IMG/VR virus record: IMGVR_UViG_3300036945_000842
Location: 1 to 21,036 of that record
Length of the DNA: 21,036 nucleotides
Reading direction: 5' to 3' (one strand)
Source: a virus
Within the stretch, counting starts at the first letter, position 1, and each line of letters begins with the position of its first letter. Both the position numbers and the translations under genes were made by a program. Shown here piece by piece: positions 6,498 through 19,874 of this stretch. The notes below the pieces were generated by a model. The model saw only the letters and a list, made by a program, of their open reading frames with translations, was not told where the DNA came from and did not search any database.

Positions 6498-8657
6498 ATG
6501 GACTACGACCGCGTTCCACAAGAGCTAAAAGACCTAAAGCGATGGATGCTCTGGAACTACAACGCCAAGGGCACGAAGATTCCGATTAGGCTCGGCGGTG
6601 ATGCTGGAAGCTCAACTGACCCGTCTGCGTGGTGTGCTTTCGATATCGCTGTCGATTCTTCGATCTATTATCAGGGCATTGCCACCGTAATCGCAGAACC
6701 ATACACGGGCATCGACCTTGACAACTGCCTGACGGAATATGGCGATTTCCGCGACTGGGCCTTACCAATCATCGCAAGACTTGACGGCGTTGCTTACGCG
6801 GAAATTTCGCCAAGCAAAACAGGCGTCAAGTTTATTACGAAGGCCCGCAAGCCTGACGGGTTCCGCTGTCTTCACAAGATCAATCCCGGCAAGGCCTACA
6901 AGCAGCAGATTGAATGCTACGACCACGATCGATTCTGGACGATCACGGGCGACGTTTACAACGGCAATGATGAGATCGGTGATGGTCAATCCGTAATCGA
7001 CTGGCTTTGCAAAACCTATCTGAGCGGAGAGCAGGAAAAGAAAGGCACCGTCAAACATGAGCCAGCGCCGCCAAGAGTCGAGGCCACAAGCCTTCTTCAG
7101 CGGGCGTCAGCCTATGCGGACAACGTGCCAGGAGAAGCGAAAGGAAATCTTCGTAATGCTGCATTCTCCCTTTCCGGTCATCTGCATTCGCTGAAAGATG
7201 AGTTTCACAATCGCCTGACGGACGCGGAAGTGTTCGACATCCTTTGTGACTGGAACCGAAAAAACAACCCACCGCTGCGTGCTGACGAATTGAAAGAGGC
7301 GTCCGTTAATGGCCGAAAAAACGGGACGCCACGCGAAGATAAATTGTCGTCATTTTTGGTGCAAAGCCATCATTCCCCGGTCTGCCTTGATTTAATCCTA
7401 AACACAAGGGAGGCGACGAAGATTGGCGACGAGCCTTTCCCAATCGACTGCCAGTCACTGCCGGGATTCCTCGGCGAGTTGATCAGGCATAACCTTGCGA
7501 CGGCACACTATCCGCTTCCAGAGGTTGCAATGGGTGCGGCGTTGTCGCTGCTATCGACGCTGACCGGCGGCAAGGTGTCAGACCGCGGCGCGAGAACAAA
7601 CCTCATGATAATTTCCTTGGCCCTTTCCGGAGCTGGCAAGGATCATGGCCGAAAGCTCAATCGCAAGATCCTGAGACTATGTGGCGGTGATCGGATGATT
7701 GGCCCCGAACGAATCGGAAGTCATGCTGGGATTTTGTCGGCGTTGTCGGAACAGTGGAACATCCTTTTCCAAGTCGATGAGATTCATCACTTGGCAATGG
7801 CCATGCAAGACCGATCGAGCCCGCATTTGGTTCAGATCGCAAGCGTGTTGATGCAGGTGTTTTCGTCGGCTGATGACATCTGGACAGGGGACGCTTACGG
7901 CGACAGGGCGAAAGTCAAGACTCTGCACTTCCCCCATTTGGTTTTGCACGGGACTGCAGTTCCAAAAGACTTTTGGGAGGCGATGACAGAAAAGAATCTG
8001 TCTGGTGGGCTGATTGGCAGATGCCTGATTTTTGAGTCCTCGAAGTACGTCGATTATCAAGACCCTTCCACAGATCCGATTCCGCAGAGTGTGATTGATC
8101 AGGCTGCGTGGTGGATGCAACTGAGAACGTCGACCGGAAACTTAGCCGATCAATCAGATGGGTCCACGCCAATCCTGATTCAGCGAGACGAAGCGGCACA
8201 CAAAAGACTTCATGAGCACGCAGTCAAGATTTCCAAGCGGAGAATGACAGAGGAGCCGATCACTGCGGCCATCTGGTCGAGAGCGGCTGAAAAGACAGTA
8301 AAGCTCGCAATGCTATTTGCCTGCTCTCGTGCTTCTGGTCAGTACGTGCCGACGATCCAGTTGGAAGACGCTGAACTGGCAATCCGACTCAATAACTGGA
8401 TCACTCGCAAAATTCTCCAGCAGGCCGATAGGCACGTGTCAGGAAGTCAGTTCGGACAAATGGTCAATGAGATGCGGTCTATGCTCAGATCTCGTCCTGG
8501 GGAATGGGGGATGAATGAAATAACTCGGCGAACGCAAAAATTGAAACCAAGGGACAGGGCCGACATCTTGGCAACTTTGATTCAGTCTGGTTGCGTTCAG
8601 CAAGGGGAGAGGGAGACTGGGGGAAGGATGGCAGTTACATTCTCTGCCATCGAGTGA
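6498..8657 (+). CDS. PrimPol-type primase fused to a DUF3987-like helicase/ATPase
   Basis: This 719-residue two-domain replication protein has an N-terminal third resembling archaeo-eukaryotic primase/PrimPol proteins of phages. It has a VPQELKDLKRWMLWN lead-in, the metal-binding motif GIDLDN (Asp73, Asp75), a 'EISPSKTGVKF' motif (102-112) and 'IECYDHDRFWTITG' (138-151). The usual nucleotide-binding His of the second motif (S-x-G-x-H) is replaced here by Lys111. A linker with a PriCT-like 'VFDILCDWNRKNNPPLR' segment leads into a DUF3987-type P-loop domain, with Walker A LSGAGKD (Gly378 region) and Walker B FQVDEIHHL (about 422-430). It is the last gene of the operon, followed by a strong terminator and the candidate origin. 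It presumably primes and unwinds phage DNA. Confidence 0.85.
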   Translation: MDYDRVPQELKDLKRWMLWNYNAKGTKIPIRLGGDAGSSTDPSAWCAFDIAVDSSIYYQGIATVIAEPYTGIDLDNCLTEYGDFRDWALPIIARLDGVAYAEISPSKTGVKFITKARKPDGFRCLHKINPGKAYKQQIECYDHDRFWTITGDVYNGNDEIGDGQSVIDWLCKTYLSGEQEKKGTVKHEPAPPRVEATSLLQRASAYADNVPGEAKGNLRNAAFSLSGHLHSLKDEFHNRLTDAEVFDILCDWNRKNNPPLRADELKEASVNGRKNGTPREDKLSSFLVQSHHSPVCLDLILNTREATKIGDEPFPIDCQSLPGFLGELIRHNLATAHYPLPEVAMGAALSLLSTLTGGKVSDRGARTNLMIISLALSGAGKDHGRKLNRKILRLCGGDRMIGPERIGSHAGILSALSEQWNILFQVDEIHHLAMAMQDRSSPHLVQIASVLMQVFSSADDIWTGDAYGDRAKVKTLHFPHLVLHGTAVPKDFWEAMTEKNLSGGLIGRCLIFESSKYVDYQDPSTDPIPQSVIDQAAWWMQLRTSTGNLADQSDGSTPILIQRDEAAHKRLHEHAVKISKRRMTEEPITAAIWSRAAEKTVKLAMLFACSRASGQYVPTIQLEDAELAIRLNNWITRKILQQADRHVSGSQFGQMVNEMRSMLRSRPGEWGMNEITRRTQKLKPRDRADILATLIQSGCVQQGERETGGRMAVTFSAIE

Positions 8658-9057: not shown

Positions 9058-9231
9058 ATGAAAAAACGAGCACACAAAGGGCAGCCGAAGAAGGCACCAA
9101 AGATGAAGCGGATCATCCGGGCCATCAGCCTGACACCAGCACAAGACAGGCGGCTGGACGAGATCATGAAGGCGACCGGGCTCGATCGATCGAAGGCGGT
9201 TCAGTGGCTGATTGAGAACTGGCAGGGGTAG
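9058..9231 (+). CDS. Small ribbon-helix-helix DNA-binding protein
   Basis: This 57-residue protein has a highly basic N-terminal arm (MKKRAHKGQPKKAPKMKR), a beta strand (IIRAISLT), helix A (PAQDRRLDEIMKATG) and helix B (DRSKAVQWLIENW). This is the CopG/Arc ribbon-helix-helix layout, in which the strand dimerises and enters the major groove. It is too short for routine ORF calling but is well supported by this pattern. It lies directly after the iteron region and is the first gene of the small-gene array, so autoregulation or binding to the nearby repeats is plausible. There is no Shine-Dalgarno sequence before the ATG. It could be an antitoxin-like repressor, but no toxin partner is next to it. 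Confidence 0.75.
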   Translation: MKKRAHKGQPKKAPKMKRIIRAISLTPAQDRRLDEIMKATGLDRSKAVQWLIENWQG

Positions 9232-9495: not shown

Positions 9496-9795
9496 ATGCG
9501 TGTGATTGGATTTGCGACAGTTGTTGCGGTGACTATCGTTTACAGCCAGATCCTGAATGGGTTTGCGTTCTCTGTACTTTGGGGCTGGTTCGTTGTCCCG
9601 ACATTCGACTGCGTTGCGTTGACTGTTCCAGCCGCGATAGGCATCGCAATGACGTTCAGTTACCTCGCTCATGGCATCAAGGCCGACGACGGAAAGAAGC
9701 CTTTTAGCGAAAAGCTGATTGAGGCATTTATCACAGGGACGCTGAGGCCGGCATTCGCTCTGCTGGTTGGATTCGTGGTCAAGTCTTTCATGTGA
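9496..9795 (+). CDS. Multi-pass membrane protein, unknown
   Basis: This 99-residue protein starts at ATG 9496, with GGAG eight bases upstream in leader B. Hydrophobic segments cover about residues 3-17 (VIGFATVVAVTIVYS), 22-36, 38-57 (around VALTVPAAIGIAMTFSYLA) and 83-98, so three or four membrane passes are expected. The loop between the third and last (GIKADDGKKPFSEK) is charged. No family is recognised; holin-like accessory or superinfection-exclusion roles are possible but unsupported. Its 3' end from 9752 onwards is part of a 123-bp sequence repeated exactly at 12469-12591. Its stop overlaps a GTG start in ATGTGA. Confidence 0.7.
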   Translation: MRVIGFATVVAVTIVYSQILNGFAFSVLWGWFVVPTFDCVALTVPAAIGIAMTFSYLAHGIKADDGKKPFSEKLIEAFITGTLRPAFALLVGFVVKSFM

Positions 9796-9874
9796 AACCA
9801 GCAGTGAAGCGAGCCACAGTAAAGATTGAAGAGGCGGCAATTGCGGCAATCGCGATTTTGAAACAGGCAATCAA
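9752..9874. repeat. 123-bp exact direct repeat, copy 1
   Basis: This segment is identical to 12469-12591. Copy 1 contains the last 13 codons of the membrane-protein gene and nearly all of a small GTG-started ORF. The match ends exactly where each copy meets a leader element, although copy 2 has one more A (AAATAG versus AATAG). Confidence 0.95.
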
Positions 9875-11214: not shown

Positions 11215-11529
11215 ATGACGGACGTTTGTGAAACATGCTCTGGAACTGGTGGCCATGGCGACCCATACACAGACCACTGGCACTGGTGCAAAGATTGCGA
11301 CGCGCATCAGAAGTATCTAGACCGAAGCTCCAGAGTCGCGATTCCGCCACATTTGGTTCCTGATCTGGAAAAGATCGGAAAGCTCGCAACGCGGCTGCAA
11401 AAGGCGGAAAGCCTGCTGAAACGTGCATACGACGGAATGGCAAAAGCGCACTGGCAGGAAGGCGAGTCGGAAGCGGAAGTCTGCGATGCAATCAGGTTCT
11501 ATCGTGATAATTATGGTGCGTGGAAGTAG
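11215..11529 (+). CDS. Small zinc-knuckle protein, unknown
   Basis: This 104-residue protein has its start fixed by leader E. The N-terminus has CETCSGTGGHGD and then CKDC, spaced like half of a DnaJ-type zinc finger (CxxCxGxG). The remaining two thirds are helical and charged (LEKIGKLATRLQKAESLLKR, then a second helix) and end in 'YRDNYGAWK'. It is probably a soluble DNA-, RNA- or protein-binding accessory factor. No family is recognised. It is followed two codons later by leader F. Cys-pair small proteins of this sort recur in this array (11902, 12237), which suggests a shared design rather than shared descent. Confidence 0.65.
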   Translation: MTDVCETCSGTGGHGDPYTDHWHWCKDCDAHQKYLDRSSRVAIPPHLVPDLEKIGKLATRLQKAESLLKRAYDGMAKAHWQEGESEAEVCDAIRFYRDNYGAWK

Positions 11530-11585
11530 GCGCGGACGTGGTGTCCTCTGCTTGTGGGAATTGAAGAAAACAAAGGGAAAGACAA
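11530..11585 (+). promoter_or_regulatory. Leader element F
   Basis: GGCGCGGACGTGG, TGTCCTCTGCTTGTGGG, then AATTGAAGAAAACAAAGGG, AAAGACAA and the ATG. The 50 bases 11534-11583 are identical to 12600-12649 in leader H. Confidence 0.85.
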
Positions 11586-12468: not shown

Positions 12469-12591
12469 CATTCGCTCTGCTGGTTGGATTCGTGGTCAAG
12501 TCTTTCATGTGAAACCAGCAGTGAAGCGAGCCACAGTAAAGATTGAAGAGGCGGCAATTGCGGCAATCGCGATTTTGAAACAGGCAATCAA
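12469..12591. repeat. 123-bp exact direct repeat, copy 2
   Basis: This segment is identical to 9752-9874. The first 40 bases are the end of the membrane-protein gene at 9496-9795, here without its body and preceded directly by TAA, so they are a relic. The remainder carries the 28-residue GTG-started ORF intact. The copy sits between the Lar-like gene and leader H. Confidence 0.95.
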
Positions 12592-12595
12592 ATAG
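12509..12595 (+). CDS. 28-residue helical peptide (copy 2, intact)
   Basis: GTG at 12509 overlaps a TGA (ATGTGA), and the frame ends in TAG at 12593-12595, directly at leader H. The sequence starts VKPAVKRATVKIEEAAIAAI and ends AILKQAIK. It is an amphipathic helix with basic ends. The duplicate at 9792 encodes the same 27 residues. It is too short for confident calling, and without a full upstream gene here, coupling would depend on the relic frame (GTG 12492 or similar). I list it because the exact duplication retains the whole ORF. Confidence 0.35.
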   Translation: MKPAVKRATVKIEEAAIAAIAILKQAIK

Positions 12596-12656
12596 CAGTG
12601 GACGTGGTGTCCTCTGCTTGTGGGAATTGAAGAAAACAAAGGGAAAGACGATCGAA
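12596..12656 (+). promoter_or_regulatory. Leader element H
   Basis: AGCAGTGGACGTGG spans the preceding TAG, then TGTCCTCTGCTTGTGGG and AATTGAAGAAAACAAAGGG follow. Bases 12600-12649 are identical to 11534-11583 (leader F). A short ACGATCGAA separates it from the ATG at 12657. Confidence 0.85.
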
Positions 12657-14278: not shown

Positions 14279-14479
14279 GTGCCTGCAAATGTAAAAAAAG
14301 TCTGGTATAGCAAAACCAGCATCTTCGGGGCTCTGCAGCTTGCAGCCGGAACCCTCGCTCTATTCGCGGGCTCGGATCTTATCCAGCAACACCCGCAAGC
14401 TGTGGCCGCAATCGCAGCGGCATCCGGTGTGATCACGATCGGTCTTCGGTTTATCACATCCTTGCCAGTGGAGTGGTAA
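14279..14479 (+). CDS. Holin-like two-helix membrane protein
   Basis: This 66-residue protein starts at GTG 14279, seven bases after GGAGG (14267-14271); an upstream in-frame TTG at 14246 has no binding site. After a basic start (VPANVKKVWYSK), residues about 14-31 form a first membrane helix (SIFGALQLAAGTLALFAG), a polar loop follows (SDLIQQHPQ), and residues about 41-59 form a second (AVAAIAAASGVITIGLRFI). The size, the 'KKVWYSKT-GALQL' start and the position before a lysin match small class II holins, which permeabilise the inner membrane to time lysis. The function is inferred from topology and context. Confidence 0.68.
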   Translation: MPANVKKVWYSKTSIFGALQLAAGTLALFAGSDLIQQHPQAVAAIAAASGVITIGLRFITSLPVEW

Positions 14480-14482
14480 ACG

Positions 14483-15103
14483 ATGGCCAAGAAAGCCGCA
14501 AAAAAGGCACCAGCCAAACGCAAGTCACGGGCAAAAGTGCCTGTGGTGCCTACTGTTGTGCCTGCCGTCGATCTGCTCAGCGAAGACGCGAAGGCAAAAG
14601 TACTTGAGGCATTGTGGAATAACACGCATCCGCCGATTCCAACCTGGCTTTTAAGCGGGCTGAAAGCGTTGCTGCTGATTGCGGTTGGCGTTGCTGCGGG
14701 GATCTGGTTTGCGGGCGGGATCGATGTGAGCCCTGACAACAAGCCAGAGCCAACGCCGGCACCAGTTCCGGAACCGGTCAAATCCTTTCGCGTCATCTTC
14801 GTCAAGGAATCCGGTCAAACGCTCCAGGGCGAGCAACTGGCAATTCCCGGGGCGAAAGAGATCCGCGAATACCTGACTGCGAAAACAACCCCGGAAGGCG
14901 GGCAAGTTGGCTGGCGTGAATACGATCCACAGCAGCAGACGGCGAGCGAACAGCCGACGATGCGCGCTCTGTGGGAAGCCGCAAAACCTAGCCTGCTGCC
15001 TGCTCCATGCCTGATTGTCGAAGTGAACGGCAAGGCCACTGTGATGCCGTTTCCAAAGACCGTAGCAGAAGCGGTTGAGACGTTTAAAAAGGCAGGTGGC
15101 TAG
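14483..15103 (+). CDS. Membrane-anchored protein with a thioredoxin-like external domain
   Basis: In this 206-residue protein, residues 1-20 are Lys/Ala-rich (cytoplasmic) and 57-80 form one membrane helix (LLSGLKALLLIAVGVAAGIW). A Pro-rich linker (84-99) follows, and 100-206 form a compact alpha/beta domain. The order strand (FRVIFVKES), helix, strand (VGWREYD), helix, strand (PAPCLIVEVNGK) and a final helix (AEAVETFKKAGG) resembles a thioredoxin fold, but the CxxC active site is absent. It is N-in, C-out, the topology of an inner-membrane spanin. It starts three bases after the holin-like gene. A role in lysis is inferred from position only; the fold call is tentative. Confidence 0.65.
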   Translation: MAKKAAKKAPAKRKSRAKVPVVPTVVPAVDLLSEDAKAKVLEALWNNTHPPIPTWLLSGLKALLLIAVGVAAGIWFAGGIDVSPDNKPEPTPAPVPEPVKSFRVIFVKESGQTLQGEQLAIPGAKEIREYLTAKTTPEGGQVGWREYDPQQQTASEQPTMRALWEAAKPSLLPAPCLIVEVNGKATVMPFPKTVAEAVETFKKAGG

Positions 15104-15930
15104 TGGCTGAGTTTTACAAAAACATTCCGATCATTGACACGGAAGCCCCGGACAACGATGTGCTCTTTCCAGCCGGAATGACGTTCGGTCTAGTGCCTCG
15201 CGACTACTCGCAAGAGCCTGAGGCGTTGTTCTCGCCACCGAGCGACATGCAGTTGATACCAGAGTCAGAATGGGACTCGCGATTTGATGAGCAGGAGCGA
15301 CTGCAATCGAGCCTCGAACATATTTATTTGAGCGGGCCGAATGGAACGCCAGCGTTCGTGAATCTCGACCAGAACGGCCACGGTTACTGTTGGGCATACT
15401 CAACTGGCCAGTCGATCATGCTCGACCGGCTGCGACGAAATCTGCCGATGATCCGCCTGAATCCACACGCGACGGCGGCAATTATTAAGAAGGGCCGCGA
15501 CGAAGGTGGCTGGTGCGGGCTGTCCGCGAAGTTCGCACGTGAGATCGGCTACGCGATGGAAGGCAATCAGGCTGGACAATGGCCGCTCCATTCTCGCGAC
15601 CTGCGAAACGACACGCCAGAGCTGCGGACGCAGATGGTGAAGTATCGCATCGACGAAGACTTTGTTGATCTGACGCGCCAAGTGTATGACCAGAATCTAA
15701 CGACAGCTCAGGTGGCCACATGCGGTTTTCTGAACATCCCCGGACCCGGAGATTATAACTGGTGGGGCCATTCTGTTTGCCGTGTTCGATGGGTGCGGAT
15801 TGAACGCGGATCATGGGGCCAACTGATCCTGAACTCATGGAAGGGCTGGGGGCGTCATGGTCTTGGTGTTCTGCGAGGTAGCAAGGCAATCTGTAACGGG
15901 GCACTGGCAGTAAGGAGCACAACAGCATGA
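15103..15930 (+). CDS. Papain-family (C1) cysteine peptidase, probable lysis enzyme
   Basis: This 275-residue protein has a GTG start overlapping the previous stop by one base. Residues Gln90 and Cys96 sit in 'QNGHGYCWAYSTGQS', the oxyanion Gln and nucleophile of papain-type enzymes. His223 sits in 'WWGHSVCRV', and Asn244 in 'LNSWKGWG', which matches the papain 'NSWGxxWG' motif closely. There is no signal peptide, so release through the holin is expected. It has about 80 N-terminal residues that could be a propeptide or binding region. Its place between the holin-like gene and a lipoprotein gene suggests that it acts on the cell envelope, as an endolysin-like peptidase or by cutting envelope proteins. 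Catalytic identity is strong; the target is inference. Confidence 0.83.
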   Translation: MAEFYKNIPIIDTEAPDNDVLFPAGMTFGLVPRDYSQEPEALFSPPSDMQLIPESEWDSRFDEQERLQSSLEHIYLSGPNGTPAFVNLDQNGHGYCWAYSTGQSIMLDRLRRNLPMIRLNPHATAAIIKKGRDEGGWCGLSAKFAREIGYAMEGNQAGQWPLHSRDLRNDTPELRTQMVKYRIDEDFVDLTRQVYDQNLTTAQVATCGFLNIPGPGDYNWWGHSVCRVRWVRIERGSWGQLILNSWKGWGRHGLGVLRGSKAICNGALAVRSTTA

Positions 15931-16508
15931 GATACTTGATTTGCGTTTTGTTGCTTTGTGGATGCGGCGGCACTGCCAGCCAGAAGCCGGCTGAGTTTAC
16001 AGTAACTGTGCAGCAGGCCGCTGAACATCACAGCAAAACAATCGCGGTGATTGAATCGACACGTCAGGAAATCGTGTCGCAGAATGAGCAGATCATCGAC
16101 ACGTTAAAAATAGTGGAAGCAAAACTGATTGTTCCGAAACCCCAACGGGAGGAGGTGATCAAGTCTGCTGAACCGCAGGAGGAACCACGGGCGAACCCGG
16201 CTCAAACGACAATCCCGGTTGCTCAGCCTCCTGCGGTTCGTTCTTCTGGTCCGCTAAAGCTGTCGTGGAACGTAGATGGTAACTGGAATCCGACGATCCT
16301 TGAGACCGCGAAACACCTCCGCGAAGATCACGGAATTATCGCCGATGGCATGAGCCACCAGCAGATGCACGACATGCACGCGGCTGCTCACGAGGGTCGG
16401 AAAGTGGCGAACAAATCACAGCCGGTGCAGATGATCAATCGCGGGTCAACCTGCCCGAATGGTCAATGTCCTTCGCCTCGCCGTGGATTGTTTGGACGAC
16501 GACGATGA
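15927..16508 (+). CDS. Lipoprotein, possible outer-membrane lysis partner
   Basis: This 193-residue protein is coupled to the peptidase by ATGA. The N-terminus MRYLICVLLLCGCGG is a lipoprotein signal with lipobox Leu10-Cys11-Gly12-Cys13. The next 60 residues are helical (QQAAEHHSKTIAVIESTRQE with a second helix), then a Pro/Glu-rich linker. A conserved-looking segment 'LKLSWNVDGNWNPTILETAK' and 'LREDHGIIADGMSHQQMHDM' with many His follows. The end, CPNGQCPSPRRGLFGRRR, is basic with a Cys pair and looks like tails I associate with planctomycete secreted proteins. It may act like an outer-membrane spanin, but it is longer than usual and not embedded in the partner gene. Confidence 0.65.
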   Translation: MRYLICVLLLCGCGGTASQKPAEFTVTVQQAAEHHSKTIAVIESTRQEIVSQNEQIIDTLKIVEAKLIVPKPQREEVIKSAEPQEEPRANPAQTTIPVAQPPAVRSSGPLKLSWNVDGNWNPTILETAKHLREDHGIIADGMSHQQMHDMHAAAHEGRKVANKSQPVQMINRGSTCPNGQCPSPRRGLFGRRR

Positions 16509-16792: not shown

Positions 16793-17079
16793 CAATCGAA
16801 GACACAATTATCGCCAGCGTCATCCATGAGCATCAGCGGATGGTCAGCGGTGGGCGGACTAATCTGGATGACGCACGGTCGATCGGTAAGTATGGCCGCA
16901 AAATGCTTCGGTGGGCTGACAGCGGAAAACTAAAGGCAACAGACACAAACGAAGAGATTGCAGCGTCACTATCCGCTGGACTTGTAGTGTGGCTGTTCTG
17001 GCAAATCGCTCCAGAACTTTTGCTATGGATTGTCGCTGCGATCAGAAAACGAATTTGGCAACAGGACTCACAACAATGA
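16789..17079 (+). CDS. Small protein with a C-terminal membrane helix
   Basis: This 96-residue protein is coupled by ATGA to the gene before it. The first 65 residues are soluble and helical, with 'VIHEHQRMVSGGRTN' and 'SIGKYGRKMLRWADSGKL' basic segments. Residues about 68-88 (AGLVVWLFWQIAPELLLWIV) form a tail-anchor-like helix rich in Trp, followed by a basic end (RKRIWQQDSQQ). This is an N-out or cytoplasmic, tail-anchored layout. A role in lysis timing or in modifying the host membrane is possible. No family is recognised. Confidence 0.6.
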   Translation: MTIEDTIIASVIHEHQRMVSGGRTNLDDARSIGKYGRKMLRWADSGKLKATDTNEEIAASLSAGLVVWLFWQIAPELLLWIVAAIRKRIWQQDSQQ

Positions 17080-17369
17080 CGGAAGAAGCGAAACCAATCA
17101 CAAGTCAGGTGATCGCATGGGCGGCGGGTCAGCCATTTAATAATGTGCTGCTCATGGCTATTTTGTGCGCGATTGGTTGGGGTGGCTACTATACTATGAC
17201 GGTCGGCATTCCGGCACATTTGCAGCAGATCCAAAAGGGATACGAGAGCCTGACGGAGTCGCATCGAGACGAGCGTGAGCAGACGCAGCAGCTCTATGAC
17301 AGATGGATGAACCGAACGGGCGTTGATGGCGTGTCTAATAGCAAAGTGGCGAACGTACCGAACGAATAA
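17076..17369 (+). CDS. Small membrane protein with coiled-coil tail
   Basis: This 97-residue protein is coupled by ATGA to the previous gene. A polar start (MTEEAKPITSQVIAWAAGQP) precedes one membrane helix (about 22-42, NVLLMAILCAIGWGGYYTMT), then a helix with coiled-coil character (HLQQIQKGYESLTESHRDER with EQTQQLYDRWM). A single helix with an extended charged coil after it is also how many i-spanins look, so this is an alternative inner-membrane partner for the lipoprotein. It is the last gene of the lysis block; leader element L follows its TAA. Function inferred only. Confidence 0.6.
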   Translation: MTEEAKPITSQVIAWAAGQPFNNVLLMAILCAIGWGGYYTMTVGIPAHLQQIQKGYESLTESHRDEREQTQQLYDRWMNRTGVDGVSNSKVANVPNE

Positions 17370-19626: not shown

Positions 19627-19874
19627 AAGTCGAACTAACCCTGCAACAAGCGGACGTACTCGTTGAAGCTCTTGGGCTTGCACTGGCTGCCGTCCCACCA
19701 GCTCAGCGAGTTGCCGTCTCAGTCAATCAATACGCTCCAATCGTGCAAGCACTTCAACAGGCCGCACAACCAGCTCAGCGAGTTGCCGTCTCAGTCAATC
19801 AATACGCTCCAATCGTGCAAGCACTTCAACAGGCCGCACAACCAGTTGATCCACCTACGACGGATGAAACATGA
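19623..19874 (+). CDS. Small protein built on an exact 24-residue tandem duplication
   Basis: This 83-residue protein has a start (MKVELTLQQADVLVEALGLA) followed by the segment PAQRVAVSVNQYAPIVQALQ-QAAQ twice, identical at the nucleotide level with a period of 72 bases. The repeat is amphipathic and helical (VNQYAPIVQALQQAA). The end is Pro/Thr/Glu-rich. It overlaps the genes on both sides by four bases, so it is translated within the tail operon. Without the duplication it would be a 59-residue single-helix protein, so the duplication doubles its second helix. Function unknown. Confidence 0.6.
   Translation: MKVELTLQQADVLVEALGLALAAVPPAQRVAVSVNQYAPIVQALQQAAQPAQRVAVSVNQYAPIVQALQQAAQPVDPPTTDET
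19697..19845. repeat. 72-bp exact tandem duplication
   Basis: Bases 19697-19768 are repeated exactly at 19769-19840, and the first few bases of a third unit (CCAG) follow. The duplication stays in frame in the gene at 19623-19874. The absence of any difference between the copies suggests a recent event. Confidence 0.95.

Follow-up and report, generated by a model that had tools for sequence, protein, structure and literature searches.

How does a phage break out of a host whose wall may consist of protein rather than of peptidoglycan? Which of the two forms the load-bearing wall of Planctomycetales has been disputed since the 1980s (PMC8567305; PMC4432640), and since a phage must break the layer that holds the cell together, the enzyme by which it lyses its host testifies independently to the nature of that wall. 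The question is raised by the stretch of DNA analyzed here (referred to as the window), which comprises 21,036 nucleotides (positions 1 to 21,036 of IMG/VR record IMGVR_UViG_3300036945_000842). It is a 21 kb virus fragment with replication genes (Sak4-like, helicases, primase) before and tail-fibre-like ORFs after a tight operon of four genes, which encode, in this order, a small membrane protein, a membrane-anchored partner, a C1 peptidase and a lipoprotein.

The peptidase and its active site

The peptidase gene (15103..15930, plus strand) is an open frame of 275 amino acids starting with GTG. In the initial annotation it was claimed that Cys, His and Asn of a C1 peptidase are present in the right order within papain motifs, and indeed GYCWAYS, GHSV and NSWKGWG are all found in the translation at the positions given there. 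The claim is borne out by an alignment of 44 homologues (27-76% identity). The oxyanion-hole glutamine Gln90 (codon 15370..15372; papain Gln19), the catalytic nucleophile Cys96 (15388..15390; papain Cys25), the catalytic base His223 (15769..15771; papain His159) and Asn244 within NSW (15832..15834; papain Asn175), all encoded on the plus strand, are conserved in 44/44 sequences, and the spacing of six residues from Gln90 to Cys96 is the same as in papain. Because Q90, C96, W97, G135, G136, H223, N244, S245 and W246 do not vary in any of the 44 homologues, the motifs are, as judged from the alignment, not there by chance. The catalytic cysteine is the only invariant one of the family. A signal peptide or N-terminal membrane helix is absent from the window peptidase, and by hydropathy no family member has an N-terminal membrane segment. 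Gln90, the conserved anchored partner gene and the inteins described below were missed in the initial annotation.

As lone query the window peptidase retrieved nothing usable from Pfam, PHROGs or PDB sequences. PF00112 (Peptidase_C1) is, however, matched by 27 of its 44 relatives (best 4.2e-14), and the family profile finds chymopapain (2.8e-15) and cathepsin K (2.9e-15) in the PDB with the catalytic residues aligned. An initial model from 7 sequences (pLDDT 44.9) was set aside; the AlphaFold model of the window peptidase that was used has a pLDDT of 93.8 and a pTM of 0.92. Its closest structural match is xylellain (3ois; Z 20.8, 2.2 Å, 210 residues), followed by proenzymes of papain-family proteases, pro-cathepsins among them (Z 17-19), and by Cwp84 (Z 16.7). 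The best structural matches listed are all C1 peptidases, so that the papain-type identity proposed earlier, which a predicted structure unlike papain would have refuted, was upheld by sequence and fold alike. There can be hardly any doubt that the product of the gene is a C1A (papain-family) cysteine peptidase, for which thiol-dependent peptide hydrolysis is inferred. Because the model aligns to proenzymes over a longer stretch (207-233 residues) than to most mature forms (186-201 residues), the N-terminal segment may be a latch that covers the cleft.

Models of CHAP, NlpC-P60 and C58 peptidases were not among the Pfam matches of the 44 members at E <= 0.01. It should be noted that their absence from the fold matches listed, the best of which are C1 enzymes, is no exclusion. 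Nor did Pfam reveal a peptidoglycan hydrolase or wall-binding domain in any of the 44 members; since the matches were only of Peptidase_C1 type, the peptidase was not filed as a peptidoglycan endolysin.

Related loci were found in viral contigs (54) and in bacterial genome contigs (8). By tblastn no member of the family was detected among 50,697 annotated phage records: the window protein gave only chance matches, none covering 80%, and a second family member gave no match. The best of these matches, crAssphage gp61 (E 0.1-0.2), was rejected as a chance match because the papain motifs are absent from it.

Two genes that travel together

Directly upstream of the peptidase gene lies that of the partner (14483..15103, plus strand), whose TAG stop overlaps the GTG start at 15103 by 1 nt. 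The partner has a Lys-rich N-terminus, a membrane helix (residues 62-80), a Pro-rich linker and a C-terminal domain of about 100 amino acids. It is preceded by the gene for the holin-like small membrane protein (14279..14479, plus strand), which has 66 amino acids from a GTG with GGAGG upstream or 77 if translation starts at TTG 14246. The peptidase gene is followed, with a 4-nt ATGA overlap, by that of a predicted lipoprotein (15927..16508, plus strand; 193 amino acids; LLLCGC) containing the motifs HLREDHG and CPNGQCP. The holin-like and lipoprotein neighbours already claimed for the peptidase do flank it. Further downstream, 17076..17369 (plus strand) encodes a protein with a single membrane helix and a likely coiled coil, recognized by inspection of the sequence only. 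Similar small proteins adjoin the module in several relatives; the protein may be a second holin or a spanin-type component, although this is uncertain. A scan for promoters and terminators gave no excess over shuffles.

Partner and peptidase are kept together. A partner profile search found the partner in 29 of the 30 C1-carrying viral records, and in the exception (L050) a similar small secreted ORF is seen by eye. The two genes overlap or are at most 3 nt apart in 21/35 loci, and an N-terminal membrane or signal segment is present in 32/34 partner sequences. The distance matrices of the two proteins are correlated (Mantel r 0.595; permuted maximum 0.257). Since the other genes near the module are mostly not common to the loci, which lie in otherwise dissimilar viral contigs, partner and peptidase travel as a unit. 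What the partner is related to was not revealed: no Pfam family covers it and there was no match in annotated phages. The PDB matches of its profile, which resemble Pro-rich linker and Ig-like segments belonging to other proteins, were disregarded; the partner alignment was too diverse to serve for a scan of viral contigs.

At about ten loci, mostly of the window's clade, secreted thioredoxin-like CxxC proteins are encoded downstream of the peptidase, one of which matches the thioredoxin model at 2.9e-6. The lipoprotein of the window has no thioredoxin-like CxxC, yet has the HL..HG motif in common with them. Such CxxC proteins are found downstream in L002, L004, L009, L011, L012, L013, L046 and L054 and upstream in L050 and L058; their variants are CGPC, CPPC, CEPC, CPSC and CPAC, and some share an HL..HG...LHD motif.

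Three repeats in the window were also observed. A perfect direct repeat of 123 nt (9752-9874 and 12469-12591) and one of 60 nt with 93% identity (11524-11583 and 12590-12649), which between them link three small-gene stretches, may stem from a recent duplication event in the phage or else from an error of assembly. A 72-nt tandem duplication (96%) at 19689-19832 lies within a small ORF, to which it adds 24 residues in frame.

Evidence for a role in lysis

A small membrane ORF (55-160 amino acids, ending at most 700 nt upstream) precedes the partner gene at 22/32 loci, as compared to 26/153 control genes on the same contigs (Fisher p 1.8e-8). At about one third of the loci no such ORF is detectable directly upstream of the partner. 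In L004, L011 and L012 the module is preceded by an ORF related to that of the window. In one contig (G003) the ORF at 7670-7828 is a Pfam holin above cut-off (PF23987, Pam3 gp28 family), after which come the partner at 8168 and the C1 peptidase at 9068. The holin-like ORF of the window itself has no holin-family match in PHROGs or Pfam and nothing informative in annotated phages.

Other lytic enzymes were searched for in the 30 relatives' records: none contains Amidase_2, Peptidase_M15_4, Phage_lysozyme or an above-cut-off M23 domain, and only weak M23 matches were seen, in long ORFs of two 193 kb records. In a Pfam census of four relatives' records, two scans listed 25 families each (9 and 5 more were not listed), and there was no lysin among those listed. 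Since the searches for PF11860 and PF05838 had no positive control, their outcome is not taken as evidence of absence. It should also be considered that the relatives' contigs are incomplete; another lysin could be encoded outside of them or belong to a family beyond those searched. The assignment of the peptidase to a lysis block, made from the window alone, thus gains support from the enrichment of holin-like genes upstream, from the one Pfam holin and from the lack of a common peptidoglycan hydrolase in the relatives. That the peptidase is the lysis enzyme is probable; this role is suggested by the context and has not been demonstrated.

Probable hosts with genes for cysteine-rich wall proteins

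Among the bacterial contigs that bear the module are those of one Gemmataceae MAG, of two MAGs of Planctomycetaceae and of two further MAGs of Planctomycetota. The enzyme was found at E <= 1e-12 in 2 of 392 Planctomycetota genomes, in one of them within a prophage on a 3.02 Mb contig, where the order is again small membrane ORF, partner, C1 peptidase and where structural genes akin to those on the viral contigs are present. The prophage (G232:C1:2726760-2763493; L095-L097), which is part of a Planctomycetota chromosome, has an integrase-like gene, followed by structural genes and then by the module; provided that the genome belongs to an isolate, it offers a lead to a cultivable host.

Proteins with a YTV domain are cysteine-rich wall proteins reported from Planctomycetales only (PMC8567305). 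They are encoded, above cut-off, in 6/9 of the module-carrying bacterial genomes versus 0/14 control genomes. The three carriers without them are an Alphaproteobacteria MAG, a Planctomycetota MAG of 4.1 Mb and a Flavobacteriales MAG whose copy is divergent. The contig under the Alphaproteobacteria MAG (L063, VBAH01000059.1, 199 kb) encodes a C1 protein identical to that of a 193 kb virus record (L034); it is probably a binned virus, and its host label is therefore unsafe. Planctomycetota hosts with YTV wall proteins are in keeping with the guess from the window that the envelope of the host is unusual. For the phage of the window itself, a Planctomycetota host is inferred from its relatives only.

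An intein at the catalytic cysteine

In two relatives, which are phages distant from each other, the peptidase frame is interrupted by an in-frame insert of 337 amino acids directly before the catalytic cysteine (L004:4200-5210; L028, L100:2501-3511), the insertion point being the codon that corresponds to Cys96 of the window. The inserts meet the sequence criteria for inteins (CHTADTEV.../VTPDH/...SSN|C): they begin with Cys1, have a TxxH block B and a C-terminal Asn, use the catalytic cysteine as +1 residue, and their removal restores the extein exactly. The two inserts are 64% identical, whereas the exteins are alike at only 92/176 residues of the C-extein and 33/90 of the N-extein. A third allele (L005) is without the insert and is 99.86% identical to L004 over the 4202 nt up to the catalytic cysteine codon, which is what a mobile intein would lead one to expect. 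Evidence for a LAGLIDADG domain is weak (PF14528, 5.8e-4, just under cut-off). A model of a replicative DNA helicase is also weakly matched (2.2e-4), probably by way of its intein part, and among PDB sequences the intein has no match.

In phage proteins, active centres are preferred sites of inteins (PMC5050341); in Lysin A of mycobacteriophages none was found in 224 genes (PMC3314691). Before splicing, which is itself inferred, the active site of the intein-bearing protease would not be competent. Nature would here provide an example of a protease in which splicing is needed to complete the active site.

How the protease may act

The reading that we rather favour, with reservations, is that of a holin-released C1A protease lysin of a Planctomycetota tailed phage, which probably cuts wall proteins. 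Lacking a signal peptide, the protease would accumulate in the cytoplasm, and its release by the holin-like membrane protein encoded just upstream is inferred. Once outside, it would encounter the partner, which by then is anchored in the inner membrane and exposes its C-terminal domain on the outer side; that the partner serves for docking or control is likewise an inference. The protease would then cut envelope proteins of the host and so free the phage; the most likely target is the cysteine-rich protein wall of Planctomycetales, or else the proteins by which this wall is held together. The adjacent secreted thioredoxin-like protein, encoded in some members of the clade, may open disulfides of the wall or maintain the catalytic cysteine in the reduced state. 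That the substrate is a protein wall rather than peptidoglycan is inferred, and we consider it quite possible without going so far as to call it probable.

A lysin that acts on peptidoglycan in the manner of CHAP and NlpC/P60 enzymes, by cleaving its cross-links or stem peptides, has to be kept in mind, even if we think it unlikely. A peptidoglycan target is not excluded because sacculi of peptidoglycan were reported in Planctomycetes by Jeske et al. (PMC4432640), and a papain-clan domain (N5, C39-like) is predicted in mycobacteriophage endolysins (PMC3314691). However, the close matches of the enzyme in fold and sequence are all C1 proteinases cutting ordinary peptide bonds, no wall-binding domain was recognized in it, and the module-carrying genomes encode YTV wall proteins; moreover, genes of peptidoglycan synthesis are reported to be missing in most Planctomycetales, Gemmataceae included (PMC8567305).

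The protease might also not be a lysis enzyme at all, serving instead as a secreted or host-takeover protease or as a superinfection or competition factor at the envelope, with the partner as its membrane receptor or inhibitor. A dedicated, co-inherited and anchored partner would suit a regulated protease-inhibitor pair, as would an N-terminal segment that may cover the cleft (the model aligns to proenzymes, 211-233 residues). We give this little credence: the enzyme is without signal peptide, its link with holin-like genes is strong, and the pair is retained across the virus set, whose members otherwise have few of the nearby genes in common. Very improbable is a protease of the virion, acting in head maturation or in penetration of the wall at entry. 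The tail-fibre-like ORFs after the module in the window and the structural genes beside it in the prophage would be in line with such a function, but the partner and the downstream proteins have signal or membrane segments, which most virion proteins do not, and a scaffold-protease arrangement was not observed.

Returning to the protease lysin, a more far-reaching generalization can only be proposed tentatively and may well prove wrong: that phages of Planctomycetales lyse their hosts by a papain-family protease digesting a disulfide-linked protein wall, not peptidoglycan, helped by an anchored partner, in some phages also by a thioredoxin-like reductase, and that in some an intein keeps the protease inactive until splicing. 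Since the only recognizable lytic enzyme is protein-cutting, in phages tied to YTV-bearing genomes, the question of the wall becomes directly testable, and the C1 peptidase could provide a tool for opening planctomycete cells.

Comparison with known systems

Papain-clan domains predicted in phage lysins (N5) and C1A genes of uncultured phages in the databases are already known. A report on a lysin of a planctomycete phage was not found in the open PMC literature. Two things appear to be new: that a C1A protease is the sole lytic enzyme recognizable in a conserved phage module, one linked to hosts that have genes for a protein wall, and that an intein is inserted at the catalytic cysteine of this protease.

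With papain, the cathepsins K, L and B and their proenzymes (PF00112, MEROPS C1A) the phage peptidase shares the order Gln19/Cys25/His159/Asn175, the Gln-Cys spacing and the GG and NSW motifs, and the likeness extends to a significant profile match and to the fold (Z 17-19). It differs from them in that Cys22 of CGSCW is lacking and only the catalytic cysteine is invariant, so that there are no conserved disulfides, and in having no signal peptide and a short N-terminal segment in place of a long propeptide. Xylellain, the C1A cysteine protease of Xylella fastidiosa (3ois), resembles the window peptidase in fold, in being bacterial and in its compact size, but the two are only 16% identical and xylellain is a cellular protease outside any phage lysis operon.

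Among phage proteins, two of uncultured Caudovirales annotated in BFVD as 'Peptidase C1A' (A0A6J5QDM8, A0A6J7XQB9) also have a C1A fold (TM 0.64-0.65); their identity is, however, only 15-17%, and the records consulted give neither a function nor a module. Papain-like folds are also seen in BFVD proteins annotated as 'peptidoglycan binding-like' (A0A6J5MXS7) and 'N acetylmuramidase' (A0A8S5PQA2), which are possible cases of C1-type domains in other lysins. The N5 domain of mycobacteriophage Lysin A (PMC3314691) is likewise a predicted papain-clan cysteine peptidase domain of phage endolysins, but it is C39-like rather than C1A, is part of multidomain endolysins and is directed at hosts with peptidoglycan. 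Cwp84 (4ci7; Z 16.7), the S-layer-associated C1A protease of C. difficile, acts on a protein layer of the bacterial surface, though as a host-encoded processing enzyme with a lectin-like domain and not as a phage lysin.
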